Part shown: positions 180 to 10,998 of the stretch, piece by piece | Numbering within the stretch: position 1 is the first letter of the stretch | How the letters are laid out: every line of letters starts with the position of its first letter | Assembly: GCA_930367215.1 (NCBI GenBank) | Contig: OV884056.1 | Span: 229,701,127-229,765,126, forward strand | Length of the DNA: 64,000 nucleotides | Reading direction: 5' to 3' | From: Pollenia angustigena | Taxonomy: Eukaryota; Arthropoda; Insecta; Diptera; Polleniidae | Notes under the pieces: model-generated | What the model was told of the DNA's origin: nothing | The model's input: only the letters and a program-made list of their open reading frames with translations | Databases searched by the model: none | Position numbers and translations under genes: made by a program

Positions 180-700
180 TTCCGGTGTTTTATCGTGAAA
201 TTTTGTTAAGTGATGAAGCACATTTCTGGAATAGTACTAAAAGCTAACTTTACATCCATTAAAAAAAAAACGGTATGGTGTGATTTCTGTATATGCTGGT
301 GGAATCATTGGTCTATATATCTTCAAAAATGAGGAAAATCAGAATGTTTTCGTCAATGGTAACCGTTATTGCACCATGTTAACGGACTATGTGCTTCCTG
401 AAATTCAAGCCCATGGTCTCGGTGAGCTCTGTTTTCAACAAGACGGCGCTACGAACCATACAGCGCGGGAAACAATGACCTTGTTGAGAAATCATTTTGG
501 TGACCAGTTAATTTCACGTTTTGCTGCTGTAAATTGTCCACCTAGATCGTACAATAACAAACCTTCGGACTGTTATCTCTGAGGATATGTAAAGTCTGAG
601 GTCGTCAGGAATAAGCCAGCTGAGATTGACGCTTTGGAAGCCAACATTACTCGTGTTGTTCGCGAGAAACCAATTTTATTCATTCGATTAAACGCCTAAT
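180..700 (+). pseudogene. Tc1/mariner transposase relic, DD41D type
   Basis: The plus strand encodes the catalytic core of a mariner-superfamily transposase, the nuclear DDE enzyme that cuts and pastes its own element at TA sites. Visible blocks are LLSDEAHFW near 210 (first Asp), YAGGIIG, FQQDGATNHTA (second Asp) and PPRSYNNKPSDCYL, followed by a stop where family members have FLWGYVK. There are 41 residues between the second Asp and the third Asp of KPSD, a DD41D spacing as in the rosa-like mariners. The N-terminal DNA-binding half is absent, the PPRSCDLTPLD block is eroded, and the C-terminal tail is found inverted upstream. I see no terminal inverted repeats. It is a dead fragment; the superfamily call is safe, the subfamily is inferred from spacing. 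Confidence 0.8.
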
Positions 701-4311: not shown

Positions 4312-4316
4312 CGCCG

Positions 4317-4345
4317 CACAGTGCTTTGGCCCATAGACATAAATC
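4317..4345 (+). promoter_or_regulatory. Transib left end: heptamer, 13-bp spacer, A-rich 9-mer
   Basis: CACAGTG (4317-4323) equals the consensus V(D)J recombination signal heptamer. After a 13-bp spacer comes ACATAAATC (4337-4345), then a run of A. The right end has the same kind of 9-mer at a 23-bp spacing. The sequence is as stated; its role as a transposase-binding site is inferred from the Transib and RAG families. Confidence 0.7.
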
Positions 4346-4660
4346 AAAAAAAAAACAAGTCTTATATTGTGCTTAAAAATGTACAGATCGATAGATAACA
4401 AAATAATTAAAATGAATTTTGAAGAATTTTTTAGATTTAACTCTTTTTGGCGGCGCTAGAGGGCGCCAAAGTTTGAGAATTTATAGTAAAAATGGCCAAA
4501 CAACTACTTGAGTTTTACATGCTTTAGGAAAACTGTTGTAAAACTGTTGTTTTTTAAAGCACGAGATTGAAATTTTTTTCTGTAGTAGTTTACTATATTT
4601 AGAACTAACTGTAAAAAAATTTTATTGATTTATTTTCTCATAAGTGTTTTTTTATTGGTT

Positions 4661-4832
4661 TGAAAAATGCTTATTATTTACTTAAGCTCTAAAAATTTTC
4701 TAACTTTGATGGAATATTAAAAAAAAAAGAAAAATATGGTCTATGGGTTTTTTTCTGATTTCGAATATTTAGACTGTTTTCTAATAACTACAAAAAAAAA
4801 AATTGAAAAAATTTTACCACAACTTGAAAAAA
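4661..4832. repeat. Internal direct repeat of the Transib-like element, unit 1
   Basis: This segment, starting TGAAAAATGCTTATTATTTA, is nearly identical to 5199-5368, an offset of 538 bp. Both units include TATGGTCTATGGGTTTTTTT and a stretch ending TTACCACAACTT. The same pair is present at matching positions in copy 2, so the duplication predates the split of the two copies. Confidence 0.8.
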
Positions 4833-5198
4833 AAAAACTTTTTTTAAATGGCTATTTTCATGATTTTTGATCAAATTTTGATAGTTTTCAGGAGTTTAAA
4901 AGACAATTAACTACAAATACTGTGAAATATTAATTCAAACTTATACCATTCAATAAAAAACAACAAAAATCAAAATATGTATAAAAAATTGTTTGTGTTT
5001 GTCTGCATTCTACGGCATAAGAGGGCGCTGAAATCACAAATGCCCTTGGTTTTTTATTGTTTCAAGAAAATAATTGTAAAAAATTAATTTTTTGGATTAC
5101 GAGATTCAAATTTTTTTCTGTAACAGCTAACTATATTCTAAACCATCTATAAAAAACTTTTACTGGAATTATGCTCCTATACATATTTTTTAATGGTT

Positions 5199-5368
5199 TG
5201 AAAAATGCTTATTATTTAGTTAAGCTCTAAAAATTTCTTAACTTTGATGGAATATTAAAAAAAAAAGAAAAATATGGTCTATGGGTTTTTTTCTGATTTC
5301 GAATATTTAGACTGTTTTCTAATAACTACAAAAAAAAAAATTGAAAAAATTTTACCACAACTTAAAAA
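5199..5368. repeat. Internal direct repeat of the Transib-like element, unit 2
   Basis: Second unit of the 538-bp-offset duplication described at 4661-4832. The units differ by a few bases and a one-base indel. Confidence 0.8.
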
Positions 5369-6663
5369 AAAATTTATTTAAAAAAAATGCTTTTTTCGTG
5401 ATTTTTGCTCAAACTTTCATAGATTGAATTAGTTAAAAAAAAATAAACTAGGAACATAATAAGAAAAAAATCCAAATATATATACTATTGAATTAGAAAA
5501 ATTGACAAGATAAATTAAAAAAAATTAGTATAACAGTTGTGTCTGTTTCTTTTTGTCGACACAAGATGGCGCTAAATTCCCAGATGACGTTGGTTTTTCA
5601 TCGTATAAAGAATATTTTCAAAATGTGACTTAGTGCCGTTATTTTTTATTTAAATTGAAGATGGTTACGTGACAGAAGTTTTTTTTTGGTAACAGCCTTT
5701 GTTTGTAGTAAGAGCAATTCTATTGTGGAGTGTTCGAAAATATTGCATACAGGGTTTTAAATTTAAAAGAAAATAAAAATTTTCTATTAAAATGTTAAAT
5801 CAATTTATATATTTAATAAATACTTACTTTTACAAACGAGTAAAAGTGAGGGCGCGTGGTTCAAAAAATGAACGTGCACATCTCTAATCAATTTTATTGC
5901 AATCAAAATCAGCTTATCAAATTTTATTGGAATCTTTCTATTTTTGAACATAGCTCCCATACAAATCACTCTCCCGAAAATAGCTTTTAATGCCAGCTTC
6001 CTTAAAAATATATGTAGTAACATACCAATATAAATCGTAGGTTACATATTCGGCAGAAAGAACTTTGAAACGAATCTTAACCTCATAACATAATTCTGGT
6101 GGGTCCATGATTGCCCATGGGTCCCAAATAGATTACAATCTGGAACTTTGTTTTTAAATACTATGCTATAGGATATCACATGGTCGGGCTTGACCGATTA
6201 TACTTTCTTACTTGTTATTTTTGCACGACCATTTTAAGCGTTTTTAACTCATTTTTCATTAAATGATGTTTTTGTATTTTTCACATTTATAATCCGATTC
6301 TACCAAAATTTGGCACACATATATATCTAACAAATATCAATTTTCATACCAAATTGTATTACGATCGGATAATTTTTGGAAGTGTTATAACATTTTTAAG
6401 AAAAAGGATATATGGCAGGACCTTGAGTCCTTGTTCAGATTTAAGTGAAAATTTGCACATACGTTGCTAGTTGTGTGTGTATTAGTATGACCATTTTTTG
6501 TAGTTTTGTGGGCATTATTGAAGCTAAAATTACATTTTTCCATTTCAGGACACATGGGAGGTAGGCGTGTCCTTGGACCGATTTGTCCAAAAATTCAAAT
6601 TTTTCTTAACTAAGCTATTCTATGCTTGTGTACCAAATTTCAAAAATTTCTGACAACTCCTTC

Positions 6664-6702
6664 TATTTATGTCCCTTCGTTATATGGGGACAAAGCACTG
6701 TG
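6664..6702 (-). promoter_or_regulatory. Transib right end: heptamer, 23-bp spacer, A-rich 9-mer
   Basis: Read inward on the minus strand, CACAGTG (6702-6696) is followed by a 23-bp spacer and ACATAAATA (6672-6664). Compared with the left end, the heptamer-proximal CTTTG and CCC are shared and the 9-mer is moved inward by 10 bp, about one helical turn. Confidence 0.7.
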
Positions 6703-6707
6703 CGCCG

Positions 6708-7372
6708 CATTCCAAAAAAATTTGAGTTTAGTAAGAGAGTGATGTGAATTTCCATACATTTGATATGGGGTCTACATTTGTAGACTACCGGCCAGGTGAT
6801 GGTCATTTTGTAAAGGAGGGTGTGGGTTGAGCTGTTAATTATTTTTTTAACGTGTTAGTGGCGAAAACTGCTTAGAATTGATTTTTAGGAAGCTACTGAA
6901 CATTTCGCACCCTGCTGTTGTGGAAATTATTTTTTTATTGAACATAAAGGTTAATTAAGTAGCCAATTCTGTCATTTTCTGTTTTAGGAACCGTTAAAGA
7001 AACAATTACCCGGTATAACTCTGCCCACCAAAACTGCACAAAAATGCAATCTTCTCGGAATCTTTTATAGGATTCAATTTAAAAACTTGATAAAGATAGG
7101 GATAAAATATTCTACTAGTAAGAAACGGTCTGCGGAGCTAATAAATTTCATCATTTCTGCTTCAGATCTGCTTATTTTCCTCCTTTAACTTTTCTTTCGT
7201 CGTCGCCAATGATTAGTTTAACAAATAACGTGGTTGACTGCTAGTTAACAATTAATTTATTTTATTTATTATTGACATAAATATATGTACATTAAAATTA
7301 AGTTAGATTTTATTTACGAAGAGCACGTTATGTTAATGCACATCAATGAAAGGCTTGGGTAGGTAAATTTTA
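6708..7372. other. Flank between the Transib copy and a mariner; holds a dispersed repeat
   Basis: From 6708 to about 7210 I see no gene or repeat. From 7218 to 7345 lies the second copy of the segment found at 1674-1765 (start GTGGTTGACTGCTAGTTAAC, end TATGTTAATGCACATCA). The mariner-type element starts immediately after. Confidence 0.45.
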
Positions 7373-8119
7373 AGTGCCGATGTTGATTTTGAATAAAACA
7401 CAAATTATTTAGGACATTACTGTAATTTCTTTTTATTATGATAATATTTGTATGGTTCAATTATCGGTCAAATGGCCGCCGCGACACACCTCCATACGAT
7501 GGTCCAAATTTCCATGACGCTGAGGCATAATTGAGGTTCTATGCCGTTAATGTGCCAAATTACCTCATCTTTTAGCTCTTTAATTGTTCCTGGCTTATCG
7601 ACGTACACCTTTTCTTTCAATACCCTTAAAAAAAAGAATTCCAACGGTGTCAAATCACATGAACTTGGCGGCCAATTGACATCGCCACCACGTGACATAA
7701 CACGGCCGTTGAATTTGTCGAGCAAAGAGCCATTTTTTCGTTAGCTGTGTGGCAAGTGGCACCGTCCTGTTAAAACCACATATCGTCCACATCCAAATCT
7801 TCCAATCCGGGTCATAAAAAGTTCGTTATCATCTCACGACAGCGAATACCCTTCACAGTTACTACCTTACCGGCCTCATTTTGTAAGAAATACGGCCCGA
7901 TGATGCCGCCAGCACATAAACTGCACCAAACAGTCATTCTTTGTGGATGCATTATTTTTCGACAATCACTCTTGGATTATCATTCTCCCAAATGTGGCAA
8001 TTCTGCTTATTGACGGATCCACTGAGGTGAAAATGTGCCCCATCACTGAAGATGATTTTCTTCGAAAATTGATCATCCTTTGTTGGCATTTCTTGCCAGC
8101 ATTCTGACCATTGACGACG

Positions 8120-8148
8120 CACAGTGCTTTGGCCCATAGACATAAATC
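8120..8148 (+). promoter_or_regulatory. Transib copy 2 left end (heptamer, 13-bp spacer, 9-mer)
   Basis: CACAGTG at 8120-8126, spacer 8127-8139, ACATAAATC at 8140-8148, identical to copy 1. Confidence 0.7.
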
Positions 8149-10523
8149 AAAAAAAAACAAGTCTTATATTGTGCTTAAAAATGTACAGATCGATAGATAA
8201 CAAAATAATTAAAATGAATTTTGAAGAATTTTTAAGATTTAACTCTTTTTGGCGGCGCTAGAGGGCGCCAAAGTTTGAGAATTTATAGTAAAAATGGCCA
8301 AACAACTACTTGAGTTTTACATGCTTTAGGAAAACTGTTGTAAAACTGTTGTTTTTTAAAGCACGAGATTGAAATTTTTTTCTGTAGTAGCTTACTATAT
8401 TTAGAACTAACTGTAAAAAATTTTTATTGATTTATTTTCTCATAAGTGTTTTTTTATTGGTTTGAAAAATGCTTATTATTTACTTAAGCTCTAAAAATTT
8501 TCTAACTTTGATGGAATATTAAAAAAAAAAGAAAAATATGGTCTATGGGTTTTTTTCTGATTTCGAATATTTAGACTGTTTTCTAATAACTACAAAAAAA
8601 AAAATTGAAAAAATTTTACCACAACTTGAAAAAAAAAAGCTTTTTTTAAATGGCTATTTTCATGATTTTTGATCAAATTTTGATAGTTTTCAGGAGTTTA
8701 AAAGACAATTAACTACAAATACTGTGAAATATTAATTCAAACTTATACCATTCAATAAAAAACAACAAAAATCAAAATATGTATAAAAAATTGTTTGTGT
8801 TTGTCTGCATTTTACGGCATAAGAGGGCGCTGAAATCACAAATGCCCTTGGTTTTTTATTGTTTCAAGAAAATAATTGTTAAAAATTAATTTTTTGAATT
8901 ACGAGATTCAAATTTTTTTCTGTAACAGCTAACTATATTTTAAACCATCTATAAAAAGTTTTTACTGGAATTATGCTCCTATACATATTTTTTAATGGTT
9001 TGAAAAATGCTTATTATTTAGTTAAGCTCTAAAAATTTCTTAACTTTGATGGAATATTAAAAAAAAAAGAAAAATATGGTCTATGGGTTTTTTTCTGATT
9101 TCGAATATTTAGACTGTTTTCTAATAACTACAAAAAAAAAAATTGAAAAAATTTTACCACAACTTAAAAAAAAATTTATTTAAAAAAAATGCTTTTTTCG
9201 TGATTTTTGCTCAAACTTTCATAGATTGAATTAGTTAAAAAAAAATAAACTAGGAACATAATAAGAAAAAAATCCAAATATATATACTATTGAATTAGAA
9301 AAATTGACAAGATAAATTAAAAAAAATTAGTATAACAGTTGTGTCTGTTTCTTTTTGTCGACACAAGATGGCGCTAAATTCCCAGATGACGTTGGTTTTT
9401 CATCGTATAAAGAATATTTTCAAAATGTGACTTAGTGCCGTTATTTTTTATTTAAATTGAAGATGGTTACGTGACAGAAGTTTTTTTTTTGTAACAGCCT
9501 TTGTTTGTAGTAAGAGCAATTCTATTGTGGAGTGTTCGAAAATATTGCATACAGGGTTTTAAATTTAAAAGAAAATAAAAATTTTCTATTAAAATGTTAA
9601 ATCAATTTATATATTTAATAAATACTTACTTTTACAAACGAGTAAAAGTGAGGGCGCGTGGTTCAAAAAATGAACGTGCACATCTCTAATCAATTTTATT
9701 GCAATCAAAATCAGCTTATCAAATTTTATTGGAATCTTTCTATTTTTAAACATAGCTCCCATACAAATCATTCTCCCGAAAATAGCTTTTAATGCCAGCT
9801 TTCTTAAAAATATATGTAGTAACATACCAATATAAACCATAGGTTACATATAAACCCTCATCCAAAAAACCCATATATGAAGATGAAGATATCTAAATAA
9901 TATTCGGCAGAAAGAACTTTGAAACGAATCTTAACCTCATAACATAATTTTGTTCTGGTGGGTCCATGATTGCCCATGGGTCTTAAATAGATTACAATCT
10001 AGGAACTTTGTTTTTAAATACTATGCTATAGGATATCACATGGTCGGGCTTGACCGATTATACTTTCTTACTTGTTATTTTTGCACGAGCATTTTAAGCG
10101 TTTTTCACTCATTTTTTATTAAATGATGTTTTTGTATTTTTCACATTTATAATCCGATTCTACCAAAATTTGGCACACATATATATCTAACAAATATGAA
10201 TTTTCATACCAAATTTTATTACGATCGGATAATTTTTGGAAGTGTTATAACATTTTTAAGAAAAAGGATATATGGCAGGACCTTGAATCCTTGTTCAGAT
10301 TTAAGTTAAAATTTGCACATACGTTGCTAGTTGTGTGTGTATTAGTATGACAATTTTTTGTAGTTTTGTGGGCATTATTGAAGCTAAAATTACATTTTTC
10401 CATTTCAGGACACATGGGAGGTAGGCGTGTCCTTGGACCGATTTGTCCAAAAATTCACATTTTTCTTAACTAAGCTATTCTATGCTTGTGTACCAAATTT
10501 CAAAAATTTCTGACAACTCCTTC

Positions 10524-10562
10524 TATTTATGTCCCTTCGTTATATGGGGACAAAGCACTGTG
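10524..10562 (-). promoter_or_regulatory. Transib copy 2 right end (heptamer, 23-bp spacer, 9-mer)
   Basis: Reading inward on the minus strand: CACAGTG at 10562-10556, spacer 10555-10533, ACATAAATA at 10532-10524, identical to copy 1. Confidence 0.7.
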
Positions 10563-10998
10563 CGACGTCTGGAATGGTCAAGAGGCTTTAGCTCTTGAAT
10601 CAATTGCAACTTGTTAGCGTGTAAATGGAAGTCTTTATGCATAATGTTCATCAATGACGAGCGTGAGTGCTGCCATTGTTGCGCACGACGACGAGTTGAG
10701 GTGGGCAGCTATTCAGCTACACTATTGCGAACAGCAGCAATATTTTCTGCAGTACGAGCTGTACGAGCATGCAGTGGCATTTTTACATCTCCTATAGACC
10801 CAGTTTGCTCATTGTACGGATGTACGCACATTTGGACTATTAAATTGACCGAAAAAATCACAAAGTGCACGAAATGTATTTTGATGCCTGAATAGCTTTA
10901 ACGCGTTGCTCGATTGTGTATCTTTTCATGGTTCAAATTGAGTTAGTCTGAAATTGAGAAATGTTAAAAAATGTAGTTCACATTCAACATCGGCCTTT

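Follow-up and report, generated by a model that had tools for sequence, protein, structure and literature searches.

The window, a stretch of 64,000 bp from the genome of the fly Pollenia angustigena, contains two copies of a non-autonomous Transib family (Table 1). The family has terminal inverted repeats that start with CAC and resemble the heptamer of recombination signal sequences (RSS). In both copies the motif ACATAAAT lies 13 bp inward of CACAGTG at the left end and 23 bp inward at the right end. An earlier note on this DNA had described this layout, with ACATAAATC at the left and ACATAAATA at the right, and it can be read directly from the letters. The 5 bp duplications flanking each copy and the identity of CACAGTG with the heptamer of V(D)J recombination signals, also claimed there, were confirmed. 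The sequence that hosts copy 2 was taken for a mariner-like reading frame.

Table 1. Coordinates of the two Transib copies in the window, with their ends and target site duplications
Feature	Coordinates	Strand	Details
Copy 1, left-hand target site duplication	4312..4316		CGCCG
Copy 1, non-autonomous Transib	4317..6702	+	2,386 bp; no Transib protein relic found inside
Copy 1, left (13-type) end	4317..4345	+	CACAGTG 4317-4323; 13 bp spacer 4324-4336; 9-mer ACATAAATC 4337-4345
Copy 1, right (23-type) end	6664..6702	-	heptamer 6702-6696; 23 bp spacer 6695-6673; 9-mer ACATAAATA 6672-6664
Copy 1, right-hand target site duplication	6703..6707		CGCCG
Copy 2, left-hand target site duplication	8115..8119		CGACG
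Copy 2, non-autonomous Transib	8120..10562	+	2,443 bp; no Transib protein relic found inside
Copy 2, left (13-type) end	8120..8148	+	heptamer 8120-8126; spacer 8127-8139; 9-mer ACATAAATC 8140-8148
Copy 2, right (23-type) end	10524..10562	-	heptamer 10562-10556; spacer 10555-10533; 9-mer ACATAAATA 10532-10524
Copy 2, right-hand target site duplication	10563..10567		CGACG

The two copies are 97–99% identical over their aligned parts, and their agreement therefore reflects common descent, not conservation. By itself ACATAAAT was found 16 times in the AT-rich window (10.9 expected), a count reached by 8 of 100 shuffles. As the motif alone is not rare, the evidence is in its position and not its presence. 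The 9-mer common to the left and right interiors, GACATAAAT, arose in 44 of 2,000 first-order Markov resamplings, so that in the window family taken alone the shared 9-mer, at about 2% by chance, is only suggestive.

Copies and coding relatives across the genome

A 16 bp end pattern had 1,749 matches across the genome and none when reversed as a control. The end pairs analysed numbered 41 (39 fetched and the two in the window), chosen by the exact 16 bp pattern with one free position; a 42nd left end was a single end, without a partner, in one fetched piece (L048). CATAAAT was found at spacing 13 in 40 of the 42 left ends and at spacing 23 in 40 of the 41 right ends. Duplications were perfect over 5 bp in 36 of the pairs, matched at four of five positions in four and at two of five in one. 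The left duplication, by column (n=41), had C in 30, G in 37, any base, C in 38 and G in 38, giving the GC-rich consensus CGNCG, which a published table gives for Transib (PMC5704228). A chance origin of the ends was rejected on the reversed control and the perfect duplications. Among the 100 places listed, all 39 inward-facing adjacent pairs no more than 10 kb apart joined a left end to a right end, an outcome that inheritance of the ends alone would also yield. The left end had no match in viral contigs, and Rfam gave no match at gathering scores.

The assignment to Transib, proposed in the earlier note from the form of the ends, is upheld by a coding copy whose ends agree with those of the family, a transposase core related to that of HzTransib and the CGNCG duplications. 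The longer copies retain a C-terminal relic that matches HzTransib (6pqn_A, E=9.7e-4), and an open frame of 286 aa covering the core matches the same chain with E=1.2e-64. No Pfam family scored above its cut-off for the 10 open frames from the element and the window, for the seven from longer copies or for the core frame; a database relative of the core frame, P0018, exceeded the Pfam RAG1 cut-off (26.3 against 25 bits). The coding copy at C2:15711525-15716588, known by its core frame as a search match, is flanked by AGACG/AGACG, its core is 99% identical to the 286 aa frame and its ends are spaced 13/23 as in the window family. An autonomous element with unrelated ends, which would have spoken against the earlier note, was thus not what this copy revealed.

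The sequence L079 includes the right end, but the left side, over its initial 231 bp, has no match in it. Its N-terminal exon includes a GRP motif, and a sequence match of this exon to the nonamer-binding domain of RAG1, or to any other RAG1 chain, was not found. For the coding copy at C3:235457873, windows L082 and L083 held no ends. Three coding elements could be read at both ends and oriented, and in each of them the transposase lies downstream of the short end.

The 9-mer was expected to be more conserved within the family than the sequence around it, and this expectation failed. Variable cells made up 2.5% of the 8-mer and 1.0% of the spacer at the left end, and 1.9% and 0.6%, respectively, at the right (n=56 and 58), the 8-mer thus varying more at both ends, in a sample where positions 1–16 were favoured because most copies had been picked by their ends. 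The window family is young.

Ends of other Transib families in the genome

A sister family (core identity 79%) has the left end CACTATG-13-ACAAAAATC; its right end, CACTATG-23-ACAAAAATA, was read in a neighbouring insertion that has a Transib-like C-terminal tail. In this family the heptamer and the 9-mer have changed alike at the left and right ends. A family encoding 550 aa, with duplications CGTCG/CGTCG, has the ends CACTGTG-12-CCAAAAATG and CACTGTG-23-CCAAAAATA, and 1 of 2,000 resamplings equalled its shared motif; windows for a second copy of this family missed its ends. A family encoding 546 aa was found in two insertions (CGCCG/CGCCG and CGGCC/CGGCC); here the shared TTTGGCAAAAA, reached by 2 of 2,000 resamplings, is shifted by 11 with spacings of 11 and 22. 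The 546 aa frame, with one common score, accounted for 22 of the 140 scored matches (140 scored of 7,705 candidates). A family with a 706 aa frame is symmetric, with duplications CGACG/CGACG and a shared 22-mer at offset 0, so Transibs in this genome can do without asymmetry. No ends were found for a 711 aa family, whose best pair scored 21 against 26 for the best of 100 shuffles.

End pairs were picked by a score compared with the best of 100 plain shuffles; the 706 aa family scored 30 against 23, and the 546 aa (27 against 25) and 550 aa (29 against 26) families were only just above the shuffles. The ends of these two were accepted because their shared 11- and 13-mers fall mostly outside the 14 bp scored and, for the 546 aa family, because the second insertion has identical boundaries too. 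The offset between the ends is 10, 10, 11 and 11 in the four asymmetric families. The earlier suggestion of a difference of about one helical turn between the ends holds, at 10 bp in the window family and 10–11 bp in the three others.

In a gapless alignment of right ends from three families, 20 of 39 columns are invariant (maximum in 20,000 resamplings, 12). Invariant columns number 0/9 at positions 8–16, 7/9 at 17–25, 6/9 at 31–39 and 5/7 at 40–46, so the distal motif is conserved at a fixed place in the right ends of these families. Compared with the short end, the long end has an additional block of 10–11 bp containing CATAYAA (the best among the gaps tried, 9 to 12), and this block (7/9) is conserved as much as the 9-mer (6/9). 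Given its conservation across families, the asymmetry probably predates the family split.

Proposed pairing of unlike ends and its alternatives

Our main reading, to which we give a probability of about 0.68, is that the window holds two non-autonomous Transibs in which an A-rich 9-mer follows CACAGTG after 13 bp at the left end and after 23 bp at the right end, and that coding copies with matching ends supply a transposase which recognises the heptamer and the 9-mer jointly and pairs a short end with a long one. That the ends are read as an unlike pair is likely because the coding copy and the other coding families show about the same offset of one turn. A domain resembling the nonamer-binding domain would contact the A-rich 9-mer, and the extra helical turn would leave the ends unequal yet keep the two motifs facing the same side of the DNA. 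Unequal ends would lead synapsis to favour unlike partners, as in the 12/23 rule. The window copies would be mobilised in trans, by a transposase that would enforce 12/23-like pairing.

Several points were counted against this proposal. The spacer of the long end is not free, given the CATAYAA block, and the exon with the GRP motif has no sequence match to RAG1. For invertebrate RAG-like transposons, PMC7204232 proposes that mainly the terminal 15–17 bp are read, with relative insensitivity to asymmetry. The variability of the 9-mer within the window family and the symmetric 706 aa family count against it too and, with this last point, favour a reading in which the asymmetry has no part in pairing. 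The transposase would then read only the heptamer and the next 10–15 bp, the 9-mer and the extra block would be relics or accessory subterminal sites, and the one-turn difference would be incidental; most Transibs are symmetric, and HzTransib has little nonamer similarity, according to PMC8289069. We regard this as unlikely, though the most serious of the alternatives, as the offset recurs across four families, the heptamer and 9-mer of the sister family changed alike at both ends, and the 9-mer region, unlike positions 8–16, is conserved in right ends of families whose cores are 46–50% identical to that of the window family.

The long-end block (positions 17–46) could instead be a regulatory site, for example for the ending of transcription or for a host DNA-binding protein, and its spacing fixed thereby and not by synapsis. 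Conservation extends beyond the 9-mer to position 46 and includes the block within the spacer, and a YY1-like host factor is reported to bind the ends of ProtoRAG (PMC7481187). The core of the 9-mer is, however, common to the short end, a likeness not required of a regulatory site at one end alone, and we consider this explanation improbable. Very improbable indeed is that both ends are of the 23 type, the true left nonamer being an A-run at spacing 23–25 and not ACATAAATC at 13. The A-run is present at spacing 23 in 41 of the 42 left ends, and at 24–25 it scores 7/9 against the consensus nonamer ACAAAAACC, equal to ACATAAATC at 13. Its length differs between copies, however, and in the sister family spacing 13 scores 8/9 and spacing 23 only 6/9. 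The 550 and 546 aa families lack the A-run, yet have a common motif at 12 or 11 and at 23 or 22. Since other families lack it, the left A-run was rejected as grounds for reading the window family as purely 23/23.

Beyond the proposed pairing of unlike ends in this family, insect Transib transposases might follow a 12/23-like rule of their own, in which an ancestral one-turn difference and a contact to CATAYAA in the downstream end make the ends unequal, and synapsis joins only an upstream to a downstream end. This idea is tentative, and we put it somewhat below an even chance. If it is true, neither RAG2 nor the vertebrate immune system is required for the 12/23 rule, and this genome offers its symmetric families as a natural control. 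The asymmetry of Transib ends may bear on the origin of the 12/23 rule. Asymmetric families with long open frames occur in this one genome together with a symmetric family and with a non-autonomous family that has many copies and sharply defined ends; side by side, they offer matched enzymes and substrates for asking whether the transposase alone prefers unlike ends.

Comparison with known systems

Asymmetric 12/23 ends have been published for Transib5 of Drosophila melanogaster and for Transib2, N1, N2 and N3 of Anopheles gambiae (Kapitonov and Jurka 2005, cited after PMC8355894), and PMC9435367 reports ends of unequal build in Transib subgroups I and II. The asymmetry of the window family is thus not new in kind. 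The Drosophila and Anopheles families have a heptamer, a nonamer-like motif and 12/23 ± 1 spacers, as here, and the window family, with 13/23 spacers and ACATAAAT, is set beside them by description. HzTransib of Helicoverpa zea (PDB 6pqn) has the homologous transposase core noted above and a duplication of the same length, 5 bp (PMC1852546), but its ends, in contrast to those of the window family, are symmetric and bear little or no resemblance to the nonamer according to PMC8289069.

ProtoRAG of amphioxus resembles the window family in its bipartite asymmetric ends, and the unlike pair is reported to be preferred in assays (PMC8289069). It differs in its 27/31 spacers, in a TR5 element unlike the A-rich nonamer and in encoding a RAG2-like protein. 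Besides the identical heptamer, the likeness to V(D)J recombination signals is that the 9-mer reaches its highest score at 13, where the A-run at 24–25 equals it, and at 23, and that the left 9-mer of the sister family, ACAAAAATC, matches ACAAAAACC at 8/9. The V(D)J signals belong to gene segments, whereas these are transposon ends, and the shorter spacer is 12 there and 13 in the window family. Finally, the RSS spacer is described as poorly conserved (e.g. PMC2666730), while the long end of the window type has a conserved block inside its spacer, a feature absent from the plain RSS picture.

Ends of the window copies and of their family

Copy 1 and copy 2, the two non-autonomous elements in the window, start with the heptamer CACAGTG at all four termini, and ACATAAAT is separated from it by 13 bp at the left (short) end and by 23 bp at the right (long) end. 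These features and the flanking duplications (see table) are as described in the earlier note. The copies are 97–99% identical across their aligned parts and are therefore a single observation, not two. Copy 2 interrupts a reading frame that, from its sequence, we take to be mariner-like and to which Pfam assigned no family. When copy 2 and one duplication were excised in a script, the flanks joined into an open frame through the insertion site, so the ends belong to a genuine insertion. Inside each copy a segment is also directly duplicated at a step of 538 bp (matching parts: 254 nt, 90%; 121 nt, 74%), and a longer family copy, L018, seems to contain more repeats of it. The A-run immediately inside the left 9-mer differs in length among copies.

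A 16-bp end pattern with one free position had 1,749 matches in the genome (1.37 Gb, 31 contigs); the reversed control had 0. Thirty-nine inward pairs were fetched from the first 100 places listed, all in contig C1 (0.5–79.3 Mb), and with the window copies gave a set of 41 pairs, some of which are possibly non-independent (L027/L028 and L031/L032). All 41 consisted of a left and a right end, and the 39 adjacent inward pairs within 10 kb among the 100 places were made up of 20 left-right and 19 right-left, with 0 alike. The duplications were perfect in 36 pairs, matched at 4/5 positions in four and at 2/5 in one, with the consensus CGNCG, which one row of a published table lists as a Transib target (PMC5704228). 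Of 42 left ends, 40 had CATAAAT at spacing 13; of 41 right ends, 40 had it at spacing 23. L027 and L028, 26 kb apart, share an identical duplication and the same unusual left end, and are probably one insertion copied together with its surroundings. An identical duplication is also shared by L031 and L032, 96 kb apart.

The test proposed in the earlier note, conservation of the 9-mer above its surroundings, failed within the family. In a set where most copies had been picked by exact match to positions 1–16, per-position mismatch in left ends (n=56) was 0.3% in the heptamer, 1.0% in the spacer, 2.5% in the 8-mer and 3.3% at positions 41–58, and in right ends (n=58) it was 0.2%, 0.6%, 1.9% and, at positions 40–50, 1.7%. 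This set was obtained from 60 left and 62 right ends by removing the L001–L008 rows, after exclusion of four hits starting inside the element and of any end <60 nt. The existing variation does not single out the 9-mer, and the family has not existed long enough to show a footprint.

Features of the window and of the Transib families (identities relative to the 286-aa L079 core)
Feature	Position	Strand	Details
Copy 1	window 4317–6702		5-bp duplications CGCCG
Copy 2	window 8120–10562		5-bp duplications CGACG
Direct duplication, 538-bp step	window 4507–5439 (copy 1), 8309–9241 (copy 2)
A-run inside left 9-mer	window 4346–4355, 8149–8157
CATAYAA block region	window 6686–6678 (copy 1), 10546–10538 (copy 2)	minus	right-end positions 17–25
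Pieces read as mariner-like transposase	window 7471–8114, 10568–10897	minus	no Pfam family
Further piece read as mariner-like	window 241–579		no Pfam family
1,040-aa open frame inside long family copy	L010:1703–4822	minus	read as reverse-transcriptase-like
Coding copy	C2:15711525–15716588		5,064 bp; AGACG/AGACG; left CACAGTG-13-ACATAAATC, right CACAGTG-23-ACATAAATA
Sister family (79%), left end	L084:420		CACTATG-13-ACAAAAATC
Sister-type right end	L088:130		CACTATG-23-ACAAAAATA; adjacent insertion, opposite orientation, 5.3 kb from left end
550-aa frame (50%)			one insertion; CGTCG/CGTCG; CACTGTG-12-CCAAAAATG and CACTGTG-23-CCAAAAATA
546-aa frame (46%)			two insertions; heptamers CACAGTG and CACAGAG; common TTTGGCAAAAA offset 11 bp
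706-aa frame (43%)	C5:76348980–76353700 (L093, L094)		one insertion; CGACG/CGACG; symmetric ends, 22-mer at same place in both; CACACTG, gap-free similar 38-bp repeats

Coding members of the family

When the window was searched alongside 40 fetched pieces, no transposase piece was found in copies 1 and 2; a decayed C-terminal piece was present in longer copies in 18 of the 41 sequences (0 in the window). One such piece matched HzTransib (PDB 6pqn_A, E=9.7e-4), and a second piece searched had no HzTransib match. In the coding relative L079, a 286-aa core open frame matched HzTransib at E=1.2e-64 (chain residues 145–411). L079 has the right end of the window family, and nothing in it matched the first 231 bp of the family's left side. 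From its sequence we further made out apparent introns, the motif WGMDGSSGHS and, in the N-terminal exon, a GRP motif. The coding copy on C2, with both ends, has a core 99% identical to that of L079, and its ends establish that a coding member shares the 13/23 ends. A candidate for the autonomous element that the earlier note had suggested seeking is present, and together with the L079 match it bears out the assignment made there: the window family is a Transib. For a third coding copy, no end was found within the fetched windows.

No cysteine-histidine motif such as has been reported in RAG1-like proteins (PMC7204232) is visible in the C-terminal tail as translated. A protein search at E≤1e-10 found 262 relatives; of the 120 listed, the named ones included Rhagoletis pomonella (63% and 68%), which is consistent with a fly. 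When four proteins were run against Pfam, one relative scored above the RAG1 cut-off and one below it. The core frame had 140 scored Transib matches in the genome out of 7,705 candidates; many of these are long open frames (534–716 aa) and 22 are equal-scoring 546-aa frames, suggesting recent activity.

Unequal ends in other Transib families

End windows were fetched for five other families and ends were found in four, three asymmetric by 10–11 bp and one symmetric, so the claim of asymmetric ends extends beyond the window family. For the 711-aa frame (46%), no end pair was found in the fetched end windows. The sister ends are from two separate insertions and are not shown as both ends of one element; the outer flank of the right one corresponds, as far as the boundary, to a copy of the same repeat, and a Transib-like C-terminal tail is encoded within that insertion. 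At positions 1–29 the sister left end differs from that of the coding copy by three changes (heptamer 4 and 5, 9-mer 4), all found again at the corresponding right-end places, with two extra changes in the right spacer. The 546-aa insertions have duplications CGCCG/CGCCG and CGGCC/CGGCC, and their spacing reads 11/22 if GCAAAAA is taken as the nonamer register and 12/23 if counted from CAAAAA.

The longest motif shared by left and right ends beyond position 14 was compared with 2,000 first-order (Markov) resamplings. A 9-bp motif was reached in 44 for the window family, 24 for the coding copy and 46 for the sister, while the 13 bp of the 550-aa family, the 11 bp of the 546-aa family and the 22 bp (offset 0) of the 706-aa family were reached in 1, 2 and 0, respectively. 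The best ACAAAAACC-like motif was at 13, 13, 12 and 11 (tied with 13) in the left ends of the window, sister, 550-aa and 546-aa families, with an A-run at 24–25 tying with the motif at 13 in the window family, and at 23, 23, 23 and 22 in the right ends.

Right ends of the window, 550-aa and 546-aa families aligned gap-free with 20 of 39 columns invariant (maximum in 20,000 resamplings, 12), distributed as 0/9 at positions 8–16, 7/9 at 17–25, 2/5 at 26–30, 6/9 at 31–39 and 5/7 at 40–46. With one gap of 9–12 bp allowed between left and right ends, the best length was 10 for the coding-copy left against the window right end, 10 for the sister and 11 for both the 550-aa and 546-aa families. The extra 10–11 bp block is situated in the right end and contains CATATAA or CATACAA. 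This CATAYAA block, at right-end positions 17–25 in the 23-bp spacer, is conserved across the three families and falls within the surplus sequence of the long end relative to the short one.

Proposed pairing of ends and comparison with known elements

In the coding copy and in the 546-aa and 550-aa families the short end lies on the upstream side of the transposase, and the unequal ends differ by one extra turn and have a motif in common. The transposase probably grips the heptamer and 9-mer at each end; the extra turn would preserve the phasing of the motifs, and the favoured pairing would be between unlike ends. A left and a right end in every pair is also expected from plain inheritance of the ends. 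As the window copies are without any transposase piece, we infer that they transposed in trans.

The observation is real, and the family is an asymmetric Transib that joins an already-known kind; its usefulness is raised by the neighbouring Transib families in the genome. In the search listings and text passages covered, a conserved block within the long spacer of Transib ends goes unmentioned, and we do not claim that it is unreported. Transib ends with 12/23 asymmetry reportedly go back to Kapitonov and Jurka (2005). They are in print in a paper whose text credits them to its reference 8 (PMC8355894). According to the text of a 2022 paper, subgroup I Transibs are all asymmetric-ended and subgroup II includes both kinds, and two blocks lie 4 and 13 bp apart in a RAG-like element from A. 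anophagefferens (PMC9435367). ProtoRAG is described as having 27/31 ends and as performing better with an unlike pair (PMC8289069).
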